IMG/VR virus record: IMGVR_UViG_3300036828_000508
Location: 1 to 52,743 of that record
DNA from: a virus
DNA: 52,743 nt
Strand: one strand, 5' to 3'
Within the stretch, counting starts at the first letter, position 1. The number at the start of each line of letters is the position of its first letter. The position numbers and the translations under genes are program-made. Below the pieces are notes generated by a model. That model made no database searches. It saw nothing but the letters and a program-made list of their open reading frames with translations, and was not told the DNA's origin. Shown here piece after piece: positions 352-52,743 of the stretch.

Positions 352-902
352 TGCAAATTGTCATCTCGTCCGGGCACGGGAAATATGTGCGCGGCGCGTC
401 CTGCTATCTCGATGAAGTGGAGGAGTCTCGACGCGTGGTGGAAAAGGTCGCTGGATACCTGCGCTCGGTCGATGTCAACGTGACCACATTCCACGACGAC
501 GTCAGCGTTTCGCAGTCGGAAAATCTCAGCCGCATCGTCGATTTTCATAACAGCCAAACGCGCGATTTGGATATCGCTGTACATTTCAATGCTTACCAGA
601 CGACCGCGAAGCTGATGGGGACCGAATGCTTGTACGTAACGCAGCAGCAATTGGCCGAGGTTGTCGCCGATAAGATCAGCGAGGCCGGCAGATTGACCAA
701 TCGCGGCGCCAAGCTGCGCCAGGATCTCTATTTCCTGAACAACACCGAAGCGCCGGCGGTCCTGATCGAAGTCTGTTTCGTCGACAGCTCGGCCGACGTC
801 AATCTCTACACCGCAAACTTTGCCGCGATCTGTCGGGCGATTGCCGAGGCCATCAGCGGCGTCGAGATCCCGTCAGACCCGGAAGATCTGACGCTGTTAT
901 AA
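351..902 (+). CDS. N-acetylmuramoyl-L-alanine amidase (Amidase_3), endolysin
   Basis: A 183-residue Zn-dependent amidase that would cut the bond between muramic acid and the stem peptide. The family's Zn and catalytic residues are visible: H9 in SSGHG, an acidic cluster E22-E25 where the second Zn ligand lies, H78 in AVHFNAY, and E140 in VLIEVCFVDSSAD. The whole protein is one catalytic domain, without a cell-wall-binding repeat or signal peptide. It would therefore need a holin or other route to the periplasm. Its start is coupled to the small gene before it. It is the last recognisable gene of the late plus-strand operon before the convergent genes at 937. The role as endolysin is inferred from family and position. 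Confidence 0.9.
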   Translation: MQIVISSGHGKYVRGASCYLDEVEESRRVVEKVAGYLRSVDVNVTTFHDDVSVSQSENLSRIVDFHNSQTRDLDIAVHFNAYQTTAKLMGTECLYVTQQQLAEVVADKISEAGRLTNRGAKLRQDLYFLNNTEAPAVLIEVCFVDSSADVNLYTANFAAICRAIAEAISGVEIPSDPEDLTLL

Positions 903-936
903 CTGCGTCTGGTCCCGTGGCCGGCATGGCTTCGCC

Positions 937-1320
937 TTACTGGCGCGTCCATATATTGAGTTGACCTTGTTCGTTCTCTCTCATCCAAACTTCCCACAGC
1001 CCGTCCTCTCGGCCGCGCTTGTCTTCGCAAGCGAAATCCAACGCAAAAGCCTTCGGCCCCGCCTCGATGTTCGCAAGCAGGCAATGTTGATCCTTGGTAG
1101 TGATGCCGCCCGCTGATAGTTGGATGCCTTGGGGGCACTTGCCGCGTCGATACAATTCATCCTTCGCTCCGGCGATAGGACACCAGTCGCCATGAAACAC
1201 CTCCGGGATTTTGCCATGAAACTCCTTCGGGATCGCGGCGGAGATATCGGCGACGGCCGGGAGCGTCATCATTGCCAGTGCAAGGGCAGTTGCAATTCCG
1301 AGTGACACGTTAGTCTCCAT
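937..1320 (-). CDS. Secreted hypothetical protein with signal peptide
   Basis: A 127-residue protein with a classical Sec signal: Met-Glu-Thr-Asn start, hydrophobic core LGIATALALAMMTLP, and a likely cut after AVADISA. The mature part has Cys residues (DWCPIAG, GKCPQG, QHCLLAN, FACEDKR) that could form two disulphides, and several Trp. I do not recognise a family. It is the distal gene of the minus-strand immunity-side cluster and faces the amidase gene tail-to-tail. It could therefore be expressed from the prophage as a cell-envelope conversion factor. That role is inference from location and export signal only. Confidence 0.7.
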   Translation of the reverse strand: METNVSLGIATALALAMMTLPAVADISAAIPKEFHGKIPEVFHGDWCPIAGAKDELYRRGKCPQGIQLSAGGITTKDQHCLLANIEAGPKAFALDFACEDKRGREDGLWEVWMRENEQGQLNIWTRQ

Positions 1321-1417
1321 TTTGCTGTAACTGACGACGGGCAGCCGGTCAGGCGCTAGTGTCCGGCCTTAGAGGGGACCGCCCGCATCTTGCGGTGCCG
1401 ACTTGACCGCCTCAATC

Positions 1418-1606
1418 TCACTTTACGCCCGCGGCCTGGAACTGTCTGATTAGGTTTTGCATCTCAGCCGGATCGGCCCCTATAGCCTCCGCTGCATGCC
1501 TCGTGGCGTTGATCTCCGATATGGAGTTGACGACGCTCACCCCGAGGACCGCGACCGGCATTAGAATGATGACGAGGATGATTGCCAGAATTTTCCCTAG
1601 TGACAC
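1418..1606 (-). CDS. Small membrane protein sharing a tape-measure segment
   Basis: A 62-residue protein: a short basic N-terminus, one strong membrane segment (residues 5-27, IL/V-rich), then an amphipathic tail from about residue 29. Residues 25-62 align without gaps to residues 89-126 of the tape measure protein encoded at 37789-40521, with 22 of 38 identical, including RHAA.AIGADPA. The DNA matches too: 48 of 57 bases between 1516-1460 (minus) and 38071-38127. The gene sits in the minus-strand cluster next to the HTH gene. A membrane-anchored tape-measure look-alike would fit superinfection exclusion by blocking an incoming tape measure, but it may also be a simple duplication remnant. 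Confidence 0.7.
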   Translation of the reverse strand: MSLGKILAIILVIILMPVAVLGVSVVNSISEINATRHAAEAIGADPAEMQNLIRQFQAAGVK

Positions 1607-1800
1607 TTTAAATCTCCGTTTGGTTTGTGTGTCTGATATCTAGCGATCAATCTAAATCCAGCAAGATCGAGTATTTGGCATTGTCCGCCAAAGAGTTGCC
1701 ATTGGGCGCCATCTGCCAAAAACTTGTTATTTGAGGACACTGGCCACGAAGCGGATTACGCGGTAGCCTTCGTTGTTCGTCACCAGCCCTTCTTGATTTG

Positions 1801-1832
1801 GCCCGGCGGCTTGCTGACCGCCGGGCTTTTTT
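1801..1832 (+). terminator. Rho-independent terminator, plus strand
   Basis: A perfect 9-bp GC-rich stem (GCCCGGCGG / CCGCCGGGC at 1801-1809 and 1818-1826) with an 8-nt loop is followed by six T at 1827-1832. It points along the plus strand. No plus-strand gene lies just before it, so it most likely stops late-operon transcripts that run past the endolysin into the minus-strand immunity cluster. Confidence 0.85.
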
Positions 1833-2172
1833 ATTGCCGCCGCCGATGTTCGTAGACGCACCGCCACTTGCGGCTATCGAGCCAGATCTTGCGGCCGCCG
1901 GTGTGGGCGCAGATATCGCTCGGTTGCGGCTTTGATTGCGGCGCTGCCGGTGCTGGCGGCGGCGGTTCTGGTGGCTTTGCCGGCGGGGGTTCCATGGCAA
2001 CGATCGGCGGCGCGAGGATCGGCGGCCGGTTCATCGGCACGACGCTGATCGCTGGCGCCTCGTCGCGCGGCGCGCGATCGGCTTTGTCGGCGCCGCCGGA
2101 AAAGACCACCGTCAGCAGCGCGATTGCGACAATGGCGAGAGCTGCCGCCGCTGCGGCCTGAAGGCGGGTCAT
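1831..2172 (-). CDS. Membrane-anchored proline-rich protein
   Basis: A 113-residue protein. The N-terminal segment (about residues 5-25, AAAAALAIVAIALLTVVF) is a membrane anchor or uncleaved signal. A long Pro/Ala-rich stretch (about 45-80) follows, then a short C-terminal module with two Cys and two Trp (DICAHTGG, KWRCVYEH). The start is set by an ATGA overlap with the upstream gene (ATG at 2172, stop of that gene at 2171-2169). A longer frame upstream is only Arg-rich shadow. The Pro-rich spacer would place the C-terminal module in the periplasm. Function is unknown. It belongs to the tightly packed minus-strand cluster behind the HTH gene. Confidence 0.7.
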   Translation of the reverse strand: MTRLQAAAAAALAIVAIALLTVVFSGGADKADRAPRDEAPAISVVPMNRPPILAPPIVAMEPPPAKPPEPPPPAPAAPQSKPQPSDICAHTGGRKIWLDSRKWRCVYEHRRRQ

Positions 2173-2363
2173 GTCACAACCTCGATCGCCTCTGCGGCGC
2201 ATACGTCGCAAAACCACGCGCATGCGCCTTCGTCGTTGAACATCATGAGCGGATCGGCGTCGTTGGGAATGATGGTGTAACAGAGCGAGCACAGCGGCAG
2301 TTGCGAATCCGGACGCGACCAGACCATGCGGGCAGCAAATTTTGGTTTTATTCTTAGCTTCAT
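2169..2363 (-). CDS. Small zinc-ribbon-like protein
   Basis: A 64-residue protein with two CxxC pairs (CSLC at 25-28, CDVC at 52-55), separated by about 24 residues, as in treble-clef or zinc-ribbon folds. The start at 2363 is chosen because its ATG overlaps the stop of the upstream HTH gene (ATGA). Its own stop overlaps the next start in the same way. Upstream in-frame codons exist but would run deep inside the HTH gene. It may be a small DNA- or protein-binding regulator. A similar double-CxxC mini-protein is encoded at 12776-12970. Confidence 0.65.
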   Translation of the reverse strand: MKLRIKPKFAARMVWSRPDSQLPLCSLCYTIIPNDADPLMMFNDEGACAWFCDVCAAEAIEVVT

Positions 2364-2632
2364 TCTTCTTCCGGCGTGCTCGGCATCATTTTCCAGCGCG
2401 GTTGAAATTGCGCGCGCGGTAGCGGCGTGCCCTCCGGCGCCAAAAGCTGCCCGACGGGACAATGCAGCGCCAGTGCCAAATCAACCAGCCGCGCGATTGA
2501 CAGCGCGACTTGGCCGCTTTCCCATCGCGACACCGTTGCGTTGGTGACGCCGAGCGCCACGGCGAGCTCGGCTTGCGACATTCTCCGGTGCTTGCGTATT
2601 GCGGCAACGCGTTGCCCGACACCGTTCCCCAT
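2360..2632 (-). CDS. XRE-family HTH regulator (repressor or Cro candidate)
   Basis: A 90-residue protein with a single Cro/C1-type helix-turn-helix over residues 5-60. The helices SQAELAVALG and TNATVSRWESGQ are the classic positioning and recognition helices. The C-terminal tail is short and shows no LexA-type protease or dimerisation domain. It is divergently arranged from a second XRE protein at 2759-2974, with about 125 bp of shared control region. This is the usual layout of a lysis-lysogeny switch. It heads a cluster of ATGA-coupled small genes likely expressed in the prophage. Which of the two XRE proteins maintains lysogeny cannot be told from sequence. Confidence 0.85.
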   Translation of the reverse strand: MGNGVGQRVAAIRKHRRMSQAELAVALGVTNATVSRWESGQVALSIARLVDLALALHCPVGQLLAPEGTPLPRAQFQPRWKMMPSTPEEE

Positions 2633-2758
2633 TGTGTCGCCCCCCGATTGTGTCGCCCCACAACCGTCAAAGCTTTTAATAGCCGGCAGAACACCGGCTA
2701 GAGCTGGTTATTCTCATGAACTATGGGCTGTGGTACTATAGTTTTGCAAGGGGGGAAA
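2633..2758. promoter_or_regulatory. Divergent switch region with palindromic sites
   Basis: The only space between the two divergent XRE genes. It holds an inverted repeat AACTAT / ATAGTT at 2719-2724 and 2738-2743. The palindrome ACTATAGT (2735-2742) overlaps a TATA-like hexamer, so a repressor bound there would cover a promoter. A related motif, CTAC-TATAAT-GTAG, occurs at 2985-2998 just after the plus-strand XRE gene. Operator function is inferred. Confidence 0.5.
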
Positions 2759-2974
2759 ATGCGCCCCTCGATGTCGCTCGGAAAGACCATCAGGCAATTG
2801 CGGCTGGCGGCTAGGCTGTCGCAGGAGAAGCTTGGCGAGCGCGCCGATCTGCACCCGACCTATATCAGCCTGCTTGAGCGCGATCGTAAATCGCCGACCG
2901 TTACGACGCTGCGGCGGCTGGCCAAGGCGCTTGGCACCACGCCGAGCCAGATCCTGCGGTCGCTCGAATGCTGA
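2759..2974 (+). CDS. XRE-family HTH regulator, plus strand
   Basis: A 71-residue protein made almost wholly of one XRE helix-turn-helix domain (SQEKLGERADLHPTYISL, then RDRKSPTVTTLRRLAKALG). The start at 2759 is preferred to an upstream ATG at 2723 because a run of six G with flanking A (2750-2758) gives a strong ribosome site just before it. A later ATG at 2771 is also possible. It is divergent from the minus-strand XRE gene and followed by a promoter-like TATAAT flanked by an inverted repeat, then the integrase. It probably forms the other half of the lysis-lysogeny switch. Confidence 0.8.
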   Translation: MRPSMSLGKTIRQLRLAARLSQEKLGERADLHPTYISLLERDRKSPTVTTLRRLAKALGTTPSQILRSLEC

Positions 2975-3033
2975 TTTTTGCTGCCTACTATAATGTAGTG
3001 CCGTAAGACGCCTGTAATAGCGCGTAAGGCCTT

Positions 3034-3242
3034 CCAAACGCCTCCCAAATCCTTCCCAAACCCTAAAAACCCCAATAAATCGGCCTAAACTGGCGCTTTA
3101 TCTTCTTTCGCCGCAAGAGATAATCTCTAGCAGAACCGAGTAGGTTACAGCAGAAGCCCTTGCGCCATGCGGGTTTCTCCCTTACGTTCGGGCTAGCGAA
3201 ACCGGGCGTCGGGGCCTCCCAGCCTCCCAAACGCCTCCCAAA
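3034..3242 (+). repeat. Direct repeats upstream of integrase (possible arm sites / attP region)
   Basis: The 16-mer CCAAACGCCTCCCAAA occurs exactly at 3034-3049 and 3227-3242, and partial copies (CTTCCCAAA, CCTCCCA) lie beside each. The 177 bp between them, from 3050, are gene-free and contain no clear tRNA end. Repeats flanking a gap next to a tyrosine integrase gene are typical of integrase arm-binding sites around attP. The core site itself cannot be picked without the host attB. Confidence 0.45.
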
Positions 3243-6346: not shown

Positions 6347-6378
6347 TTCCGCTGCTCCGTTGTTTGATCAAAAAAGGT

Positions 6379-8160
6379 CCTGCCGTTCCACTGCCCGCCG
6401 CTGCCAGCCGGTGCCAGCCTTGCCGATGCTGGCCATTCCGTTCCTGCCAATCCATTCCTGCCGTTCCGCTGCTGGCCTGTGCCCGCCGTTGCAGGCCACT
6501 GCACGCCTTGCCATTCCTGCCGCTCCATTCCGCTCCTGCCACTCCGATGCTTGCCGATGCCAGCCTCGCCAATGCCCGCCTCGCCGCTCCTGCCGTTCCA
6601 TTGCTGTGCCGTGCCTGCCATGCCGCGCCAGTGCGCGCCTCTCCTGCCATTCCGTTGCTTGTCGTGCCGATGCTTGCCCTTGCGGGCCATTGCTTGCCAC
6701 TGCACGCCTTGCCATTCCTGCCGTTCCAATGCCGGCCGGTGCGTGCCCATGCTTGCCAAGCCAATGCTCGCCGCTCCTGCCATTCCGATGCCAGCCATGC
6801 CATTGCTGTGCGTGCCGATGCTTGCCGATCCACTCCTGCCGTTCCATTGCCGGCCGGTGCTTGCCGTGCCTGTGCACGCCGCTGCCCGCCAAGCCACTCC
6901 TGCCATTCCTATGCCAGCCGCGCCGATGCGTGCCCGTGCACGCCGTTGCTAGCCACTGCTCGCCGAGCCCATCCTGCCGCTCCAATGCTCGCCAGTGCGT
7001 GCCGCGCCGGTGCTTGCCACTGCCCGCCAGACCATTCCTGCCATTCCATTGCTTGCCGATGCCTGCCGTTGCTTGCCGTTGCGAGCCTCTGCCTGCCACT
7101 GCGCGCCATGCCACTCCTGCCGTTCCACGCCGGTGCATGCCCGTGCGTGCCAGTGCCTGCCGAGCCGGTGCATGCCGCGCCGCTCCTGCCATTCCGATGC
7201 TCGCCGCGCCGTTGCTGTGCGATGCTTGCCATTGCAGGCCACTGCGCGCCTCGCCTTGCCACTCCTGCCGTTCCAATGCCTGCCGCTCCAATGCGCGCCT
7301 ATGCCCGCCGCTCCGTTGCTCGCCGATCCACTCCTGCCGATCCGATCCGGTGCTCGCCATTGCCCGCCGCTGCTTGCCATGCCGCTCCTGCCATTCCAAT
7401 GCGCGCCGATGCTGTGCGGGCCATTGCGGGCCATTGCCGGCCGTTGCCCGCCGCGCCCATGCGTGCCGCTGCATGCCATTCCTGCCGTTCCAATCCGTGG
7501 CGAGCCACGCCACGCCGCGCCGCGCCTATGCTTGCCCTGCCATTCCTGCCAATCCGATGCCCGCCACTGCTTGCCCTGCCATTCCGATGCGAGCCGGTGC
7601 GAGCCAGTGCTTGCCCTGCCGTTCCTGCCATTCCATTGCTGTGCGTTGCCTGCCGATACGTGCCGATCCGGTGCGAGCCGATCCGGTGCGAGCCTCGCCA
7701 TTCCTGCCGTTCCATTGCCCGCCAGGCCATTCCATTGCTCGCCGCGCCAATGCCAGCCCTTCCTTTGCCAGCCGGTCCACTCCTGCCATTCCACTGCCTG
7801 CCGGTGCCTGCCAATGCGATGCTTGCCTCGCCACGCCATGCCCAACCGCTCCTGCCATTCCGATGCGCCGTTCCATTCCTGCCGCGCCAGTGCTTGCCAC
7901 TGCCCGCCACTGCCTGCCGAGCCATTCCTGCCGCTCCAATGCCTGCCTATGCGGGCCCGGCCGATGCCTGCCGGTGCGTGCCATTGCCAGCCTTGCCATT
8001 CCTGCCACTCCGATGCGCGCCGCGCCGCTGCATGCCGGTGCGTGCCAGTGCGCGCCAATGCTTGCCTTGCCTCGCCACTCCTGCCATTCCAATGCCCGCC
8101 ATTGCATGCCGCTGCCAGCCAATGCTTTGCTCGCCACGCCAATGCCTTCCATTCCATTCC
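6379..8160. repeat. Punctuated pentanucleotide array (1.78 kb)
   Basis: On the plus strand almost every base parses into 5-mers of the form NN(T/G)(G/C)C, mostly NNTGC and NNGCC. The register is reset only by a 4-base TGCC in the phrase NNTCC-TGCC-NNTCC. Distances between successive CCTGCC phrases that I checked (64, 14, 59, 19, 54, 54, 74, 59, 59, 64, 74) all equal 4 plus a multiple of 5. There are about 28 units. The two leading bases of each 5-mer vary freely. Frames are open on both strands merely because the words avoid stops. The minus-strand operon runs through it, so it would be transcribed as GGCNN/GCANN repeats. No known repeat class fits. Confidence 0.9.
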
Positions 8161-8161
8161 G

Positions 8162-8199
8162 GCGCGGCCGTGAAGCAAACAAACACTTCACGGCCGCGC
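8162..8199. other. 14-bp perfect hairpin at array boundary
   Basis: GCGCGGCCGTGAAG (8162-8175) pairs perfectly with 8186-8199 around a 10-base loop of CAAACAAACA. It lies between the stop of the minus-strand gene at 8212 and the array. There is no T-run on the minus-strand side. It could be a weak terminator, a transcript-end stabiliser or a processing site that separates the array RNA from the coding RNA. Confidence 0.75.
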
Positions 8200-13013: not shown

Positions 13014-13606
13014 CCGCGAACCGCCCACATCTCATGCCGGTTGGGCTGACTGGAATTCCTCGGGCCGACGCGGAGATCAGGCGCACAATCGAAACGCTGC
13101 GCGTAGCGCAATTTGAGCAAGATCCCTTGTTTGATGTCGGCGATTCTTTCCGGCTATCGCTGTGCAATTCAGCCGTAAAGCGCGAGGGGGTAATCATCGA
13201 GGCCGCGATCAAGGATGCTGTAGAGCAAACACCGTATTTGCGCTTGTTTGAAGAAAGGGGAGGTCTGCACCGTCACGTGGACGTGCAGTTCGAATTGATT
13301 GAAAATGGCTGGCTCGTCGCGTTAGAGATCAAGCGCGGGGCATTGCACGATTCCACTAAGATACGTCAATTCCGCGCCGATTTGATTGGAATTCCGCCGT
13401 TGCTCTGCACTGCGTTGCCGTTGTTTCCCGCCGAAAATATTCGCTTTCACATCGTCTTTATCAGTGGCAACGCGCCGATCCGAGAAGGACTCAATCTGGA
13501 CGATCTCGCGCGTCTATATGGCTTGCACGCTCGCTCGCATGTCATGACCGCGCGGCAGCGTTATTCAACATCAATCAGATCAGTGTTGCGAGAGCGCGGA
13601 CTGTAA
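13010..13606 (+). CDS. PD-(D/E)XK-fold nuclease candidate
   Basis: A 198-residue protein. The core motif is RHVDVQFELIENGWLVALEI ending in K-R-G: D91 on one strand, then E106 and K108 (ExK) on the next. An upstream acidic helix (EGVIIEAAIKDA, E64) fits the first conserved Glu. This is the signature of restriction-endonuclease-like nucleases. The C-terminal half has two beta segments and a basic tail. It lies two genes ahead of an MT-A70 adenine methyltransferase, so a restriction-modification or exclusion pair is possible. A replication-linked nuclease is the alternative. Substrate unknown. Confidence 0.6.
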   Translation: MTANRPHLMPVGLTGIPRADAEIRRTIETLRVAQFEQDPLFDVGDSFRLSLCNSAVKREGVIIEAAIKDAVEQTPYLRLFEERGGLHRHVDVQFELIENGWLVALEIKRGALHDSTKIRQFRADLIGIPPLLCTALPLFPAENIRFHIVFISGNAPIREGLNLDDLARLYGLHARSHVMTARQRYSTSIRSVLRERGL

Positions 13607-13626
13607 CCATGAAGGTGAAACATAAA

Positions 13627-13926
13627 ATGACGACAAGGTGGGGCCTCAATTTATTTTCTCGTCTAAGGAACGGTGGGGTGTGGGGGATACCGCGCAGCGG
13701 GGTCGTTTTTCAAAAGCAGAAAGATGATCTGGTTTGGGTTGGCAGTGTCCCACCAAACGGCTCGCTCGCACTCCCCGTGGACGCCTATGTTGTTCAAGAA
13801 AGCGAATTTCTTACGGCGCGGGAGAAGTTTGCGGAGGTTGGTATTTTGGTTACGAAGGCCGCTGTGATCGAGAAATTTGAAAATATGGATGAGGCGACAG
13901 CGCGATGGGAGGATAGCAAGTCATGA
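13627..13926 (+). CDS. Hypothetical protein between nuclease and methyltransferase
   Basis: A 99-residue protein with no family that I recognise. The N-terminus is basic and Trp-rich (TTRWGLNLFSRLRNGGVWG), the middle beta-rich and the C-terminus helical and acidic. The start at 13627 is chosen over the ATG at 13609 because AAGGTG lies nine bases ahead of it. Its stop overlaps the methyltransferase start (ATGA). The gene could encode a specificity or inhibitor subunit for its neighbours, but nothing in the sequence shows this. Confidence 0.6.
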   Translation: MTTRWGLNLFSRLRNGGVWGIPRSGVVFQKQKDDLVWVGSVPPNGSLALPVDAYVVQESEFLTAREKFAEVGILVTKAAVIEKFENMDEATARWEDSKS

Positions 13927-25086: not shown

Positions 25087-25137
25087 GCTTCTCCTAAAAA
25101 AGTGGGGCCGCCGGACGAGGGCGACCCCGTAGATCCC

Positions 25138-25191
25138 TGCCATTCCATTGCCAGGCTTTGCATTGCTTGCCTCGCCGAGCCGCGCCACTCC
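25138..25191 (+). repeat. Single unit of the pentanucleotide array
   Basis: TGCC followed by ten 5-mers (attcc attgc caggc tttgc, then attgc ttgcc tcgcc gagcc, then gcgcc actcc). It follows exactly the grammar of the large array at 6379-8160 and ends at the same type of boundary word. It is thus one complete 54-base unit, in the same plus-strand orientation, placed upstream of the protease-capsid gene. Confidence 0.8.
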
Positions 25192-25232
25192 TTCAACAAC
25201 CCGAAGCCTATCGGACCGACGAAGGTAAAGCC

Positions 25233-34146: not shown

Positions 34147-34202
34147 ATGCCGATATCTTTTGCGGCGATTCCCTCTTCAATTAAAGTTCCGCTGTATTGG
34201 GT
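34147..34202 (+). CDS. Tail sheath protein, exon 1
   Basis: The first 56 bases of the sheath gene. AGGAG lies eight bases before the ATG, and the frame encodes MPISFAAIPSSIKVPLYW followed by the first two bases of a Val codon. Mu-type tail sheaths start in this way (MPI.F..IP...R.P). Without splicing the frame ends at TGA 34207-34210 region after 20 codons. With the intron removed (34203-34462) it continues V-E-V-D-P-S-M into exon 2. The junction GGGT|TTTT gives the U at the exon end that group I introns need. Confidence 0.8.
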
Positions 34203-34462
34203 TTTTTGAGGCCCCTTTGCCGAGCAATCGGCATCGAATAAATCCGGGTGAATTCAGGGAACAGCCAGACCGGCCAATCCTGAGCCAAGCCGCGCAAGCG
34301 GACAGGTGCAACGACTAGAGCGAAAGCTCGTAGGGCCAAGCGGCCCGAAGCGCCCGGCCCCTCACAAACGAGGGTGATGATATAGTCTGCTCTGCATAGG
34401 AATATGCAGCTGTCCCGCAAAGGGACGACGACGAGCCTCGCGACCTCGTTGTGAACATAAGG
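34203..34462 (+). ncRNA. Group I self-splicing intron in the tail sheath gene
   Basis: About 260 bases with all core elements: P AATTCAGGGAA (34251-34261), Q AATCCTGAGCC (34276-34286), R GTGCAACGACTAGAG (34306-34320) and S GATATAGTC (34379-34387). P pairs with Q (TCAGG/CCTGA) as P4. R pairs with S (GACTA/TAGTC) as P7. Hairpins CCGC-GCAA-GCGG (34290-34301) and GAGC-GAAA-GCTC (34318-34329) suit P6 and P8-type stems. The 5' exon GGGU pairs with GCCC at about 34211-34214 (P1). The last base is G (34462). It has no endonuclease gene inside. Ends are inferred from reading frame and P1. Confidence 0.9.
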
Positions 34463-35999
34463 TGAGGTCGACCCCTCGATGGCTGGTTTGCCGTCGATCA
34501 ATCTGCGCGCACTTCTCGTTGGTGTGATGAGCACTACCGAGGGCAGCGCGACGGTTGATGTGCCGGTGCCGATCGGCTCGCAAGCGCAGGCCGATTCCAA
34601 TTTTGGCGTCGGCTCGGAATTGAGCCGGATGTTCACTCGATTCTATTCCAATAATTTCGCGAATGAAGTGTGGGGCCTCGGCGTTTCGCCCGGCGGCACT
34701 GCATCGGCGGCGACCGGCACCATCACCGTCACGGCGGCGCCGACGGCTCCCGGCACGTTATGGCTTTACGTTGCCGGCCAGCTGGTCAGCGGCATCAATA
34801 TCTTTACCACCGACACGGTACCCGACATCGCGACCTCGATCGCCGATGCGATCAATGGCGCCTATGCCAGTGGCGATCCGGCGTTGCCGGTCAGTGCCGT
34901 TGCTGCGGCCGGCGTCGTGACGCTGACGGCGTTGTTTGATGGCGTCAACGGCAACGAGATCACGGTGTCGCTGAATTACCAGGGCGCACTTGGCGGTCAG
35001 ATCACGCCTCCCGGCCTCGGCATTACGTTGCCGACCGGTGGCTTGCTCAGCGGCGGCGTCGGCACGCCGGATTTCACCAACGCCATCGCCAACATCCAAA
35101 AGGAAGCGTTCGAATACGTCGCGATGCCGTACGCTGACGCCAATTCGCTGTTCGCTTGGGATCAGGAATTTGGCTTCACCGACACCGGCCGCTGGGGCTG
35201 GCAGCGCCAGCAGTTCGGCCATGTCTTTAGTGCCAAGCGCGGCATCTACTCCGACTTGATCCTGTTTGGCGATACACTTAACAGCGGGGTCGAGTCGATC
35301 ATGGCAATGGAGCAGACTTGTCCGTCGCCGATGTTCGAGGTCGCGGCCGCCTATACCGCCAAGGCGCAGCGCGCTTTGATCAACGATCCGGCGCGGCCGT
35401 TGCAGACCTTGTCGCTCAATGAAGTCAAGGCAGCGCCACTGCAGGACCGTTTCAACTTCGTCGAGATCAACAGCCTGGCATCGAACGGGCTGGCGATTCA
35501 GGAAGTCGGCAGCGATGGTCAGCCGATGATCATGCGGGAGCAAACGACTTATCAGCTCAATCTCTACGGCCAAACCGACGACGCCTATGAGCTGGTAACG
35601 ACGCTTGCGACCTTGGCCAAGCTGCTGCGCAATCAGCGCCAGGCCATCACCTCGAAATTCCCGCGCAGCAAGCTCGCCGACGACGGCACCAAGTTCGGGC
35701 CGGGGCAGGCGATCGTCACGCCCGGCATCATCAAGGCCGAGCTTGTCAACGAGTACCAGCTCGATATGTGGAACGGTCTTGTAGAGAACCTTAAAGAGTT
35801 CAAGGCTAATCTAATGGTCGAGCGCGACCCCAATGACCCCAATCGGGTCAACGTGCTCTATCCGCCCGACCTGATCAATCAGCTGCGGATCTTTGCCGTG
35901 CTGGCACAGTTCCGCTTGCAATACGATCGTGGCCTCGACACCGCGATCATCGGTGCAGCACCGCCTCCGTTCCAGGCGGCTGGTGGTACGCCGCAGTAA
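34463..35999 (+). CDS. Tail sheath protein, exon 2 (Mu gpL-like)
   Basis: The main part of the contractile sheath. After splicing, exon 1 and exon 2 give 530 residues, the usual sheath length. Exon 2 starts with the Val third base, then E-V-D-P-S-MAGLPSINLRALLVGVM. Sheath features include FRALLIG-like LRALLVG, a middle beta domain with repeated TLTA strands, and a C-terminal domain YQLDMWNGLVENLKEFKANL and NPNRVNVLYPPDLINQLRI. A start at the ATG 34479 alone would miss the conserved N-terminus. The sheath marks the phage as a myovirus. Confidence 0.92.
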
Positions 36000-37788: not shown

Positions 37789-40521
37789 ATGGCTGAAGCT
37801 GAAGAACTAAAAGTCAGGATTGTCGCCGACGATCAGGCGTCGGGCGCTTTCGCGTCGCTGCGTCAAAATATTGAGTCGCTCAACACCGGCAGCACCAAGT
37901 CGCATTTGGAGGGCTTCAAGCGCTCGCAGCAGGAATTCGCCACGCAAATGAAAGGGCTGGCCGAAAGCGCCCTCCACGGCCAAGGTGCAATGTTCGGGAT
38001 GCTGCGCGTGCTCGGCCCGGTTGGCGTCGCTGTTGGGGTTCTCGGCGCGGCCGTGGTCGAAGCCGTATCGAAGATCAACACCTTGAGGCATGCAGCGGAC
38101 GCTATCGGGGCTGATCCAGCTAAGATGCGAAACGTGATCAAACAATTTGAGGACGTGGGCATCGCGGCGGAAGAGGCGAAAAAGAATGCCTTGGGGCTTG
38201 CCGAAGCCGGCGTGCAATTGAGCAACAGAATGTCCGCGAGCTACCAGAGCCTGATGGAAATAGCGGGCCCCCATGGCGCTCAAATGGAAGCTCTTATCAA
38301 TCGCTTTCTTAAAGCATCGAGCGGCGAAAGGCCGGGCATCGTTGCGCAGGCCGCTAAGAATACTTACGAAAACGAATTAAAAATCCAGGAGATAAGAGTC
38401 AAGAATGGACAGATATCGGAGGACCAGGCGCGAGAGAATGCGCAAAATTTGGCCAATCGAGTTGCGGGAGGTTTCGGCGAGACGCCGGAAGCATTGCGCC
38501 TAAAGCAAAGCAAGGAGCTGACGGACGAGTTGCTTGAGCAGCAACATTTAACGGACGAAGCGGCCAAGCGAATGGAAGACAACGCTGACAGACTCATCGC
38601 GAAGTTTCGGCAGCTTAACGCCGAAATATTTGGTGGCGTTATTCGGTTCCTTGGCACTCCGCCGGCTCCGCCGGACACCGCTACGCCGCCGCCGCATCGG
38701 GCACTGGGCGGTCCGGTCACCGGGGGGCAGCGGTATCTGGTCGGCGAGCGCGGCCCGGAGATGTTCACGCCGCATTCCGGCGGCAACATCGATGTCGGGG
38801 CCGATCCGTTTGGCGGCAGAACCACTGAAGAAAATACCAAAGTTACCGAGGAGAATACCAAAGAGCTGAAAATGCTCAACGATCACTTCGCCAAGCTCGA
38901 GCAGGGCGATATCAACGGCCCACTCGGCGGCGGCGGACGCGGCGGCGGCGGCGGCGGCGGAGGTGGCGGCGGCGGTGACAGCCCTAATGGCCCACAGTCG
39001 CCACAGTCGCCGGGGCCACAGTCGCCACAGTCACCGAGCCCACCGTCGCCACCAGAAGCGAATCAATCGTTCTTTGATCCGTTTACGGCGGCGGCCAAGA
39101 GCCAAGGCACGCTCGGCGGCGGCGGCCTCGATCCGTTCACGGCCGGGGTTAAGGGCCTTGGCGTGCTAAGCCCGGGATCGCGCGGTGGTGCGCCGAAGCC
39201 CGGCAGTGTGCCCGGCCCCGGTCCAGAATCAATCAGCGAGGCTACGGGCGCTACGGGCGCTGCGGGTGCTGCGGGCGGCGGTGCCAATGTCTACAATAAA
39301 TTGCTCGCGGCGTACAAAGCATCAGGATTAGTCGGCGTTGTTCCTCCTGACGGCGCGAAGTATGGGATCAAAACAGGCTCCGCCGAAGAATGGGCGCGGT
39401 TCGGCACGTCCGTCGCCCACGCCGAGTCAGGCTTCAATCCGAAGGCTACCAATCCCAAAGACACAGGCGGTTCATTTGGTGTTTTCCAATACAATCCTTC
39501 TCAAGTGCCGGGCGGAAATCCTTTTGACGTAGATGCTTCGGTCAAGGCATTTGTGAGAGATTCAGCTACCTCGATAAAGCAGGGTCGCGGCCTGCAAGGC
39601 GGATTACTCGGGGCACGATTTTCTACCATCGGAGCCCATCCGGGAAGCGTAGCCGAGCATATGGGCATTGCGAACCGTATCGCCGCTCAGGCGGCCGGCG
39701 GCGGCGCCCTGCCGCATTTAACTACAGCTGACATTGGCGCGCGGCTTGCGGGATCTGCTGGCGCTGCTAGCGCTGCTAGCGCTGCTGGCGCTGCTGGCAA
39801 TACCAGTGGCGATACCGGTTACGCAGGCGTTGGCCGCTATAACTTCATGGGCAGTCAGCTCGCAAAGCAAATGGGTTTCGGCGATGTGACACCCGGCAGT
39901 GCGGCGGCGCATCTGACTTTTCCGACTGGCATTCCTAAAGGGGAAGGCCCGCCGACAATTCAGGCAAACAAATATGCCGGTGCTGATATAGCGGGCTTTC
40001 TGAAAGATTTGCATGACGCTGGTGCTCCGCTCAAGAATTTCAGTGGCGTGTATAATGACAGGAGTAAGCGGGGCGGCGGCGGAGCGTCACAGCACGCCTA
40101 TGGCAATGCGCTCGATATCGAAACAGGATTTGGTCGGGGGCCGGACAACAGTCCTGCGTTGTATGCCTGGGCGCAGGCTCATCCTGAGGAATTTGCAGCA
40201 ATCCAGGCAAAGCATCACATGCGTAATCTGGATACGTCATCCGGCGCAAGCATGCACGATTGGGGACATTTTGAATGGACGCCTACTGGCGCCTCGGATA
40301 CAGCGACCGCTCATCGTGACGCGATCGACCGCAAATCGGTGCAGACCGTCAAGGTCGAGGGCAACGGCACGCTCACCGCAAACATCAGTGCGCCGCACGG
40401 CACCGACGTCTCGCTCGGCGGCACCGGCTTGTTTAAGAAAACTCAAATGAATCGCCAAGTGCAGATGGCGCCTGCAGCGACGGGGCCGGCGTTGGCGGCT
40501 GCGGATGGGCTTGGTCTTTGA
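37789..40521 (+). CDS. Tape measure protein with two peptidoglycan-acting domains
   Basis: A 910-residue tape measure. Residues 1-300 are helical with one membrane-like span (about 70-92) and the segment VSKINTLRHAADAIGADPAK shared with the small protein at 1418-1606. A Gly/Pro/Ser-rich linker covers about 380-430. An SLT lysozyme-like domain has AHAESGFNPKATNP (E546) and GSFGVFQYNPSQ. A second, M15-like peptidase domain has SQHAYGNALDIE (H769, D776) and MHDWGHFEW (H823, D824, H827). The two enzymes would cut glycan and peptide as the tail penetrates the wall. The tail length is set by the helical part. Confidence 0.9.
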   Translation: MAEAEELKVRIVADDQASGAFASLRQNIESLNTGSTKSHLEGFKRSQQEFATQMKGLAESALHGQGAMFGMLRVLGPVGVAVGVLGAAVVEAVSKINTLRHAADAIGADPAKMRNVIKQFEDVGIAAEEAKKNALGLAEAGVQLSNRMSASYQSLMEIAGPHGAQMEALINRFLKASSGERPGIVAQAAKNTYENELKIQEIRVKNGQISEDQARENAQNLANRVAGGFGETPEALRLKQSKELTDELLEQQHLTDEAAKRMEDNADRLIAKFRQLNAEIFGGVIRFLGTPPAPPDTATPPPHRALGGPVTGGQRYLVGERGPEMFTPHSGGNIDVGADPFGGRTTEENTKVTEENTKELKMLNDHFAKLEQGDINGPLGGGGRGGGGGGGGGGGGDSPNGPQSPQSPGPQSPQSPSPPSPPEANQSFFDPFTAAAKSQGTLGGGGLDPFTAGVKGLGVLSPGSRGGAPKPGSVPGPGPESISEATGATGAAGAAGGGANVYNKLLAAYKASGLVGVVPPDGAKYGIKTGSAEEWARFGTSVAHAESGFNPKATNPKDTGGSFGVFQYNPSQVPGGNPFDVDASVKAFVRDSATSIKQGRGLQGGLLGARFSTIGAHPGSVAEHMGIANRIAAQAAGGGALPHLTTADIGARLAGSAGAASAASAAGAAGNTSGDTGYAGVGRYNFMGSQLAKQMGFGDVTPGSAAAHLTFPTGIPKGEGPPTIQANKYAGADIAGFLKDLHDAGAPLKNFSGVYNDRSKRGGGGASQHAYGNALDIETGFGRGPDNSPALYAWAQAHPEEFAAIQAKHHMRNLDTSSGASMHDWGHFEWTPTGASDTATAHRDAIDRKSVQTVKVEGNGTLTANISAPHGTDVSLGGTGLFKKTQMNRQVQMAPAATGPALAAADGLGL

Positions 40522-49112: not shown

Positions 49113-49876
49113 CGCAGCTTGCAGAATTCGGCAACGGCACCAATCGGCTGCAGCTGGTGCCTAACGCTGTGCCCATTGCCGGCGGTCCGTCGCTGATCGT
49201 GCCGCAAGTCGGGCCAGCGGGGCCGCCAGGGCCACCGGGGCCAATCGGTCCGCAGGGACCGCAAGGCCCGGCAGGCCCTGCTGGTGCGCAAGGCTCGGCT
49301 GGCGGCGACGGTGCCCAAGGGCCGCAAGGAGAGACTGGGCCTGCTGGGCCTGCCTATGGCGGCACCAGCACGACGGCACTGACGATTGCCACTGGCTCGC
49401 AGGTGTTCTCGACGCAGGCCGCAATGGCCTATGTGCCGGGGCAGCGTCTGCGCGCCATGTCGGCGGCAAGCCCGACTACCAATTTCATGGAAGGCTTCAT
49501 TACCGCCTACACCGGCAACAATCTTACCATCAACGTTGACGCGATCGGCGGCAGCGGCAGCCATGGCGATTGGTCGTTCGGGCCGGCCGGGCAGCAGGGT
49601 GCAGTCGGTCCAATAGGACCAACTGGCTCGACCGGCTCTGTCGGACCAGCCGGCCCGATCGGATTGACTGGCCCTGGCTACATGGCGACCTCAACATCGT
49701 CGCTGCCGATCGCGGTCGGCACGATCTCACTCTCGACACAGTCCGGCTTGGCTTATACCCCTGGCGCGCGCATTCGATTGGCGTCGCGCAGTCAGCCGGC
49801 AAAGTGGATGGAGGGTGTCGTCGCGACTTACTCCGGAACATCGATGACCGTCAGCATCGACCTCATTTCACCATAA
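49109..49876 (+). CDS. Collagen-like tail fibre with two tip modules
   Basis: A 255-residue protein. Residues about 35-85 are Gly-x-y triplets ([20 protein letters not shown]), then a module of about 68 residues beginning [20 protein letters not shown] and holding [21 protein letters not shown] second collagen stretch and another module ([33 protein letters not shown]) follow. The same module ends the protein at 51185-52345. Such triple-helical fibres bear host-binding tips. Confidence 0.85.
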
Positions 49877-51184: not shown

Positions 51185-52345
51185 ATGGCCATCGTGCCTT
51201 GGCAGTGCGCCAGCGGCGACGCGCCCTCGGTCACGCTGCCGTGCGCGACGACCGTAGCGCTCGCGCCGCCCGACGATAGCGTCGACACCAATCAAGTCGT
51301 CATCACTGGCAACGGTGCCATCGAATCATTTGGGCCGCCGCCAGGACCGCAGATAATCGATCCAGCCGATCCGCCGGTCCCGGTCGGCATCACTAAAAAA
51401 GTCACGTTCGAGCCGACGTCGCCGACAGCGCCGATTTCGCTTATTCATAATGGCACGACGCTAAGTTTGCTCGGCGGCGTCTCCAGGACGATCAGCAACA
51501 AATCGATCGGCGTTTATGCCTGCGATCCTGCCGGCAATTGGTCCGAGCAGTCATTCACCGATACGACAGTTGGCGATGGCGGCGGCGGCGGTAGCACGCC
51601 TGGCCCTCCGGGGCCGACCGGCCCAGAAGGCCCAGCAGGTCCACCCGGTGCAACCGGCCCGGCAGGTCCTACCGGCCCACAAGGCGCAACAGGCCCGCAA
51701 GGCTCAACTGGCGCGACCGGATCGGCTGGACCGCAAGGTCCGGCGGGGCCGCAGGGCCTGCAGGGAATTCCGGGTGTTGCGGGCTCGACCGGCGCGACTG
51801 GCCCGCAGGGCAATCCAGGGCCGGCTGGCGCAACCGGCCCAGCGGGCGCGACAGGTCCTGCTGGCCCAGCCGGTGCTGACAGCACGGTGCCGGGGCCCGC
51901 TGGCGCAACCGGCCCAGCGGGCGCGACAGGTCCCGTTGGCCCAGCCGGTGCTGACAGCACGGTGCCGGGGCCCGCTGGCGCAACCGGCCCGACAGGTGCG
52001 GCCGGTCCCGTTGGCCCAGCTGGCGCTGATAGCACAGTGCCGGGGCCGCCCGGGGCAACAGGCTCAACAGGCGCAACAGGCCCAGCTGGCCCGACAGGTG
52101 CGACCGGCGCTGCCAGTACGGTGCCGGGCCCGGCCGGTCCCAGCTATTTGGCGACCTCGGCGACGGCGATGCCGATCGCAAAAGGCAGCGTGACATTCAC
52201 GACGCAGGCCGGCTCCGCCTATAGCGTCGGCGCTCGCATCCGGCTGGCGTCGCGCGGCGCGCCAACTACAACCTGGATGGAGGGCGTCATCACTGCGTAT
52301 TCGGGCACGTCGATGACCGTCAATGTCGATCTCACAGGACCATAA
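51185..52345 (+). CDS. Long collagen-like tail fibre
   Basis: A 386-residue protein. Residues 1-135 are beta-rich ([40 protein letters not shown]). About 140-320 are Gly-x-y triplets ([20 protein letters not shown]), including a 25-residue unit with [20 protein letters not shown] repeated three times; at DNA level the unit is 75 bp (51875, 51950, 52025). The last 68 residues are the tip module with MATSA-like [16 protein letters not shown] and [20 protein letters not shown], shared with the protein at 49109. Confidence 0.85.
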
Positions 52346-52350
52346 AAACC

Positions 52351-52743
52351 ATGGAGCTCATCGGCAAAGTCTCAAGCTTCGGGGGGCCCGGCGACATGGG
52401 TGTCGCGCCTGATGAGCCCTTGGCTTTCATCTATGACGTCGACGACGCGCCGCATCTGTTCCTCGATGAACAACCCGAGGGTACGACCGGGCTGGCGCGC
52501 CGATTAAATCCGGAGGTTTTTTACATCGCTTGCCGCTGGGACTACGACGAGACACCGCGCGATATACTGCTGTCGTTTAAGGCGCTGGTGCGCTCGGCAG
52601 ACGGTCTCGCTTTCGAGGCTTACCCCGCCGATTGGGGACCGCATGAAGACACCGACCGCGTCGCCGATATCAGCCCCGGCCTGATGGACGCTCTGGGCAT
52701 TGAAACCGATGACGAGGTGCAGGTGATTTTCCCGGCGCCGTTC
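52351..52743 (+). CDS. Beta-barrel-like late protein, 5' part
   Basis: The first 131 codons, continuing across the circle join to the stop at 134-136 for 133 residues. It starts MELIGKVSSFGGPGDMGVAP, then DEPLAFIYDVDDAPHLFLDE, TTGLARRLNPEVFYIACRWD and ends as described for 1-136. The order GKVS.FGG....GV...E.LAF recurs in proteins beside phage fibre and lysis genes. A double-psi beta-barrel fold is my inference. ATG at 52351 is five bases after the fibre stop. Confidence 0.8.
   Translation, partial: MELIGKVSSFGGPGDMGVAPDEPLAFIYDVDDAPHLFLDEQPEGTTGLARRLNPEVFYIACRWDYDETPRDILLSFKALVRSADGLAFEAYPADWGPHEDTDRVADISPGLMDALGIETDDEVQVIFPAPF
52617..52743. repeat. Right copy of 127-bp terminal overlap
   Basis: Identical to bases 1-127, as described for the left copy. 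Together they show that the contig closes on itself; this copy should be removed when the circle is written out. Confidence 0.95.

Follow-up and report, generated by a model that had tools for sequence, protein, structure and literature searches.

A minus-strand gene of a temperate soil phage joins a copied tape measure segment to a predicted membrane anchor and may encode a factor that excludes related phages

Several described systems that protect cells from phages, or phages from one another, involve the tail tape measure protein (TMP) or the passage of DNA into the cell. According to the cited articles, Ltp of phage TP-J34 acts on the TMP (PMC3952083), the superinfection exclusion protein gp15 of phage HK97 has a genetic link to the tail tube and TMP genes (PMC10883804), and the tail-assembly blocker Tab of phage JBD26 is a small, minus-strand, prophage-expressed protein that has the TMP as its target (PMC10884400). 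Further articles describe SNIPE as an inner-membrane protein associated with the TMP during injection (PMC13190303), P22 SieA as a prophage-encoded inner-membrane protein that blocks DNA injection (PMC10883804), and interference with tail assembly as recurrent in prophages and satellites (PMC11364771). Here, we describe a 62-amino-acid protein encoded at positions 1418-1606 (−) of the window, which is the whole of IMG/VR record IMGVR_UViG_3300036828_000508 (52,743 nucleotides). The protein begins with a hydrophobic, anchor-like segment, and a piece derived from the TMP follows it.

HK97 gp15 is strikingly like this protein in build, as it also has 62 amino acids, one N-terminal hydrophobic segment (KD19 hydropathy 2.43), and a tail of about 35 residues. 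Unlike the 62-amino-acid protein, gp15 is not significantly similar to the TMP of its own phage (in a two-sequence comparison, best E 0.068), and its gene is a plus-strand moron beside the TMP gene, whereas the 62-amino-acid gene lies in a lysogeny-like cluster on the minus strand. The two proteins do not align with each other at E 10. TP-J34 Ltp shares membrane anchoring (predicted in the 62-amino-acid protein) and a minus-strand gene, which in TP-J34 sits between the integrase gene and a repressor homolog. Ltp differs in being a lipoprotein and in having no similarity to its own TMP (E 1.7). A further likeness is that Ltp has short repeats of helix-turn-helix-like look; an hhalign profile comparison of these repeats with the TMP motif gave a probability of 2.3%. 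In JBD26, the minus-strand gene at 13582-13833, labeled a hypothetical protein in the record, is taken to be Tab because it lies on the minus strand ahead of the large terminase-like genes, in keeping with the description in PMC10884400. Its product differs in lacking both a strong hydrophobic segment and similarity to the TMP (E 0.61). Sie2009 likewise bears no resemblance to its own TMP (E 0.36), and none of gp15, Ltp, Sie2009, and the JBD26 protein taken as Tab resembles the 62-amino-acid protein. SNIPE differs in being a nuclease, and the 62-amino-acid protein is too small for such a domain; SieA, likened here without sequence comparison, differs in targeting the ejection proteins of short-tailed phages.

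The original prediction drew on gp15 and Ltp as precedents for a membrane-tethered piece of tape measure. The match with gp15 in size and architecture stands, yet gp15 and Ltp show no detectable origin from the TMP of their own phage, so these precedents back the TMP as a target and not a TMP fragment as the weapon. The 62-amino-acid protein may work like gp15, Ltp, Sie2009, and Tab, but it belongs to none of their families. A search of the open-licence literature found no report of a TMP-derived exclusion protein. TMP-directed exclusion is known, but none of the exclusion proteins compared here is a TMP copy.

The window carries a perfect 127-bp terminal direct repeat (1-127 and 52617-52743), and the record is therefore probably a complete circular genome of ~52.6 kb with an assembly overlap. 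It encodes functions of a temperate soil phage, including an integrase, HTH regulators, a terminase, a prohead protease/major head fusion, and a portal, together with the contractile-tail genes for sheath, tube, TMP, and hub. Capsid relatives occur at 74 loci in viral contigs and also in three Bradyrhizobium genomes. The TMP is assigned to the 910-amino-acid ORF at 37789-40521 (+) because it lies downstream of the genes for the sheath (34479) and the tube (36657) and upstream of the baseplate hub gene (40518), and because it gives weak tail/TMP profile matches.

The 62-amino-acid gene holds a genuine and precise copy of a piece of this TMP gene. Its product is identical to TMP residues 82-125 at 26 of 44 positions (59%, E ~1e-14), and among all stop-to-stop ORFs of at least 40 amino acids in the window, the TMP ORF is its sole strong match besides itself. 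The BLOSUM62 local score between the two proteins is 143, compared with a maximum of 56 in 2000 shuffles, and the part behind the membrane segment scores 116 by itself, compared with a maximum of 47 in 1000 shuffles. At the DNA level, codons 18-61 of the gene (1424-1555, −) match the source segment at 38032-38163 (+) over 132 nt, with 100/132 nt identical (99/129 for a shorter span), without gaps and in the same reading frame. The match is the only inverted repeat of at least 40 nt in the 52,743 bases. It is also sharply bounded, with flanking identities of 19/100 and 23/100 bases that equal chance. The counts first reported for this likeness, 22 of 38 residues and 48 of 57 bases, proved slightly low, as we measured 24/38 and 49/57. 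Homology to the TMP N-terminal domain is further seen in the retention of G22, G43, Q55, and G60, which correspond to invariant or nearly invariant columns of a 12-sequence alignment.

The TMP of this phage was aligned with 13 N-terminal TMP segments taken from related records, and 12 of them are 20-27% identical to its N-terminus. In profile scans of 13 N-terminal segments, six matched PhageMin_Tail and two TMP_2, which also speaks for the TMP assignment, though the window's own segment matched neither. In the motif region, seven residues that are present in 13/13 related TMPs are absent from both the copy and the window's own TMP. This shared gap indicates that the source of the copy is this TMP or a close sister. 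An exact-peptide search of viral contigs for the TMP N-terminus returned no match. A second large TMP-like ORF was found in 6 of the 12 self-scanned related records with a TMP ORF of more than 300 amino acids, indicating that duplication of the TMP gene is frequent among these phages, although there it involves the entire gene. In records L098, L114, L116, L119, L128, and L134, two large TMP-like ORFs lie next to each other and are alike in their N-terminal parts.

The bounds of the 62-amino-acid ORF are exactly 1418-1606 (−). Translation would begin at a GTG codon, and a Shine-Dalgarno-like GGAG lies seven bases 5' of it (1614-1617, −). Judged by the codon usage of the phage, the minus frame of the gene tops all six frames (4.7 versus −4.0 for the next). 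Residues 3-29 (1520-1600, −) form a hydrophobic segment with a KD19 of 3.02, which ranks second among 1000 ORFs of at least 30 amino acids and is stronger than that of the TMP (2.03). A membrane anchor had been proposed for the protein, and an anchor-like segment is indeed predicted: on hydropathy and a low-confidence model (mean pLDDT 61; helices 3-29, 38-41, and 46-58), residues 3-29 are a probable membrane helix. A low-confidence model of TMP residues 1-215 (mean pLDDT 57) has helices at 65-94, 99-106, 110-122, and 127-145, and would place the end of the copied piece in a loop between helices, which is no more than suggestive. Foldseek comparison with the PDB produced no match reaching E 0.001, and the PDB sequence matches, which are to designed or coiled-coil-like proteins, were taken as chance. 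Profile searches including Pfam, PHROG, and PADLOC gave no family assignment above thresholds. The only Pfam match at E 1 was PF13400 (E 0.1, under its cut-off), the PHROG matches to phrog_8307 and phrog_2013 were weak (E 0.003 each), and the PADLOC anti-phage defence models yielded 0 families at E 0.1. The phrog_8307 lead was dropped, with one weak match in 257 Bradyrhizobium genomes.

The gene was placed by the original prediction in a prophage-side cluster next to an HTH regulator, and its position agrees with this, as it lies on the minus strand downstream of an HTH repressor operon. The operon begins with a 90-amino-acid HTH repressor-like regulator (2360-2632, −; HTH_3 E 5e-14, PHROG transcriptional regulators), continues through an ATGA overlap into a 64-amino-acid Cys-rich ORF (2169-2363, −), and ends, after a second ATGA overlap, with a 113-amino-acid Pro-rich ORF that has a hydrophobic start (1831-2172, −; frame hydropathy 2.7). 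The 62-amino-acid gene follows on the same strand after ~225 bases and precedes a secreted-looking ORF of 127 amino acids (937-1320, −). Taken together, these genes look like a lysogeny gene cluster. A promoter scan near the 62-amino-acid gene, with sigma-70 as its only consensus, found none. Palindrome-like elements in the gap 5' of the gene (1663-1731) are possibly operators. The 127- and 62-amino-acid genes (937-1320 and 1418-1606, −) have similar start regions (AAAyGGAGA..TAAmGTGTCACTmGG; 1/1000 shuffles as good), a likeness in sequence that suggests shared origin or shared control.

Transcription from the other side may also reach the gene. The late amidase gene (351-902) points towards the minus-strand cluster, and the sole terminator-like site for plus-strand transcripts found in 800-3200, a hairpin of 10 pairs with a T run at 1800-1827 (+), lies past the 62-amino-acid gene. 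The gene may therefore be crossed in antisense by a late transcript. Statistics for such hairpins are weak, with four found versus 2.7 expected in shuffles. Such a late transcript, if it crosses the copy, is the only one that would be complementary to the TMP mRNA (77% complementarity). An antisense RNA reading of the copy was dropped because the mRNAs of the copy and the TMP have the same sense.

Searches for further copies covered both viral and bacterial sequences. No relatives of the 62-amino-acid protein were found in viral contigs, genome contigs, or annotated phages, its 23-base core pattern was absent from viral contigs, and plasmids gave matches no better than E 0.06. When 50 of the 74 capsid loci were searched as related records, the protein matched three of the 50, always inside frames of 816-947 amino acids. 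Fifteen related records were fetched in pieces, 13 of which had a TMP match; 12 were self-scanned with their own TMP, leaving out G040 (TMP cut at a piece end) and G024 and G001 (no TMP), and no small TMP-like ORF was found among the 12, which are often fragments, the largest ones covered short of their last bases, and which include two nearly identical TMPs (G044 and G045). The motif profile (A2) was found at 17 places in 12/265 Bradyrhizobium genomes, all in frames of at least 426 amino acids, in 1/397 genomes at the order level (the centre genome itself), and in 6/385 genomes at the class level including the centre genome, in frames of at least 431 amino acids; the first-look search with this profile scored only part of each genome's candidates. 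At 13 of the 17 places, the surrounding Bradyrhizobium prophage region (at most 80 kb) contained no stand-alone small copy, and the small matches within these regions occurred only at the ends of fetched pieces and are read as cut TMP ORFs.

The original prediction called for a search of other phages for paired copies, and none turned up in the related phages and Bradyrhizobium prophages examined. On the sequences compared, a stand-alone TMP-derived piece preceded by a membrane-type segment is so far unique to this phage. Among amidase neighbours, a scan of 18/20 loci for a minus-strand cluster showed nothing above chance, and a search of 17 of the 20 amidase-locus records, run without a positive control, gave no TMP match. 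For the ORF at 937-1320, viral contigs, plasmids, and 195 Bradyrhizobium genomes yielded no relatives, also in a search without a positive control.

Interference directed at the TMP of related phages is the most probable function of the gene, followed closely by a non-functional chimera; that the gene serves to exclude such phages is plausible. We assign a rough probability of 0.38 to the reading that its product is a lysogen-expressed, self-derived, TMP-directed factor that excludes related phages at entry. In this reading, a fragment of the TMP gene, comprising the end of its hydrophobic helix and the next helix-turn-helix, was copied in inverted orientation beside the repressor, with a start region and a strongly hydrophobic stretch in front of it. 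The product would be made in the lysogen and seated in the inner membrane, where the TMP-like piece offered at the membrane could bind the TMP or its partner. The TMP of an incoming related phage would then be hindered as it enters the membrane to pass DNA.

This exclusion reading is favoured because the copy is far beyond chance, in the same frame, gapless, and sharply bounded, because its source is this TMP lineage and its minus frame is the best of six, and because the hydrophobic segment (3.02) ranks second of 1000 ORFs and above the TMP (2.03). The conserved core of the copy, RHAAEAIGADPA, differs from the TMP at third codon positions only, and the gene follows the repressor operon, with the rightward terminator-like site beyond it. 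In addition, TMPs are established targets of membrane or prophage proteins, as the reports on Ltp (PMC3952083), SNIPE (PMC13190303), and Tab (PMC10884400) describe. The reading is weakened by the single case, by unrejected neutrality (p = 0.17), and by the even changes outside the core. The lack of a consensus sigma-70 promoter, the fact that the compared proteins are not TMP copies, and a helix predicted from hydropathy and a model with pLDDT 61 weaken it further.

If the exclusion reading is true, exclusion factors can arise in one step from a phage's own TMP, their specificity would be predictable from sequence (exclusion would be limited to phages whose TMP carries a matching segment), and TMP residues 82-125 would stand out as an interface of importance at the membrane. 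A more elaborate version, which we consider doubtful, is a homotypic exclusion factor. The membrane-adjacent helix-turn-helix of the TMP would here be carried on a stronger anchor under lysogenic control and serve as a decoy for the most similar phages, while antisense transcription late in infection would keep the phage's own offspring from harm.

Divergence between the copy and its source bears on whether the gene is under constraint or drifting. Nei-Gojobori estimates are dS 0.45 and dN 0.25 (ratio 0.56), from 11 synonymous substitutions of ~33 sites and 21 nonsynonymous of ~99, and neutrality is not rejected (p = 0.17). In the core RHAAEAIGADPA (residues 36-47; 1466-1501, −), all four nucleotide differences from the TMP are at third positions (0, 0, and 4 by codon position). 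One of its 12 residues has changed, versus 17/32 outside it, with p = 0.014 for a core picked after seeing the alignment. Outside the core, changes are even over the codon positions (11, 8, and 9). In simulations of neutral drift with 8-20 substitutions, the stretch stays open in 68-86% of runs, and the open frame alone is therefore little evidence.

These data leave a serious, if tentative, place for a non-functional chimera, in which illegitimate recombination put 132 bp of the TMP gene onto an existing start and hydrophobic stretch and the result is a drifting ORF. Such an origin would account for the singleton, for a dN/dS indistinguishable from 1, for the even codon-position spread outside the core in a frame that drift leaves open in 68-86% of runs, and for a start region that looks patched together in its likeness to the start of the neighbouring gene. 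It is harder to reconcile with a core in which changes are confined to third positions and residues are conserved, with the absence of any frameshift in 132 nt, and with the retention of both a ribosome site and a hydrophobic segment of unusual strength. Useless DNA also tends to be shed from phage genomes, which counts against a chimera of this kind.

Alternatively, the TMP piece could act inside the cell on the newly made TMP of a superinfecting phage, late and in a Tab-like manner, stopping the assembly of tails and not DNA entry, although a strong membrane anchor would be unneeded for interference with tail assembly and the phage would have to protect its own tails. Tab offers a model as a small, minus-strand, prophage-expressed, TMP-targeting protein (PMC10884400), but the JBD26 gene taken as Tab has neither TMP similarity nor a strong hydrophobic segment. 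A TMP fragment could poison TMP oligomers, and prophages and satellites repeatedly interfere with the assembly of tails (PMC11364771); overall, we regard this explanation as unlikely. Least likely is a lysogeny-cluster membrane protein with a TMP-unrelated job, perhaps one in the envelope, and with a C-terminal tail that was by chance replaced by a TMP piece: the neighbouring 113- and 127-amino-acid ORFs also look membrane-bound or secreted and the weak family matches track the hydrophobic part (PF13400, E 0.1; phrog_8307, E 0.003), but the TMP core is the best-conserved part and no family is assigned above thresholds.

Several other features of the window are of separate interest. A full-length group I catalytic intron (RF00028, 86.3 bits) lies at 34194-34409 (+), just 5' of the sheath gene at 34479, and a stretch of 41 bases within it is 97.6% identical to HNH/DNA polymerase regions from phages of enterobacteria. 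A region of ~1.8 kb at 6370-8170 shows a strong 5-base period, with TGCC/TTCC-like units, and is open in several frames; a short piece similar to it lies at 25136-25192. Finally, at 49670-49876 and 52136-52345, two collagen-repeat, tail-fibre-like genes have duplicated near-end stretches in common, with identities of 71% across 120 nt and 74% across 77 nt.
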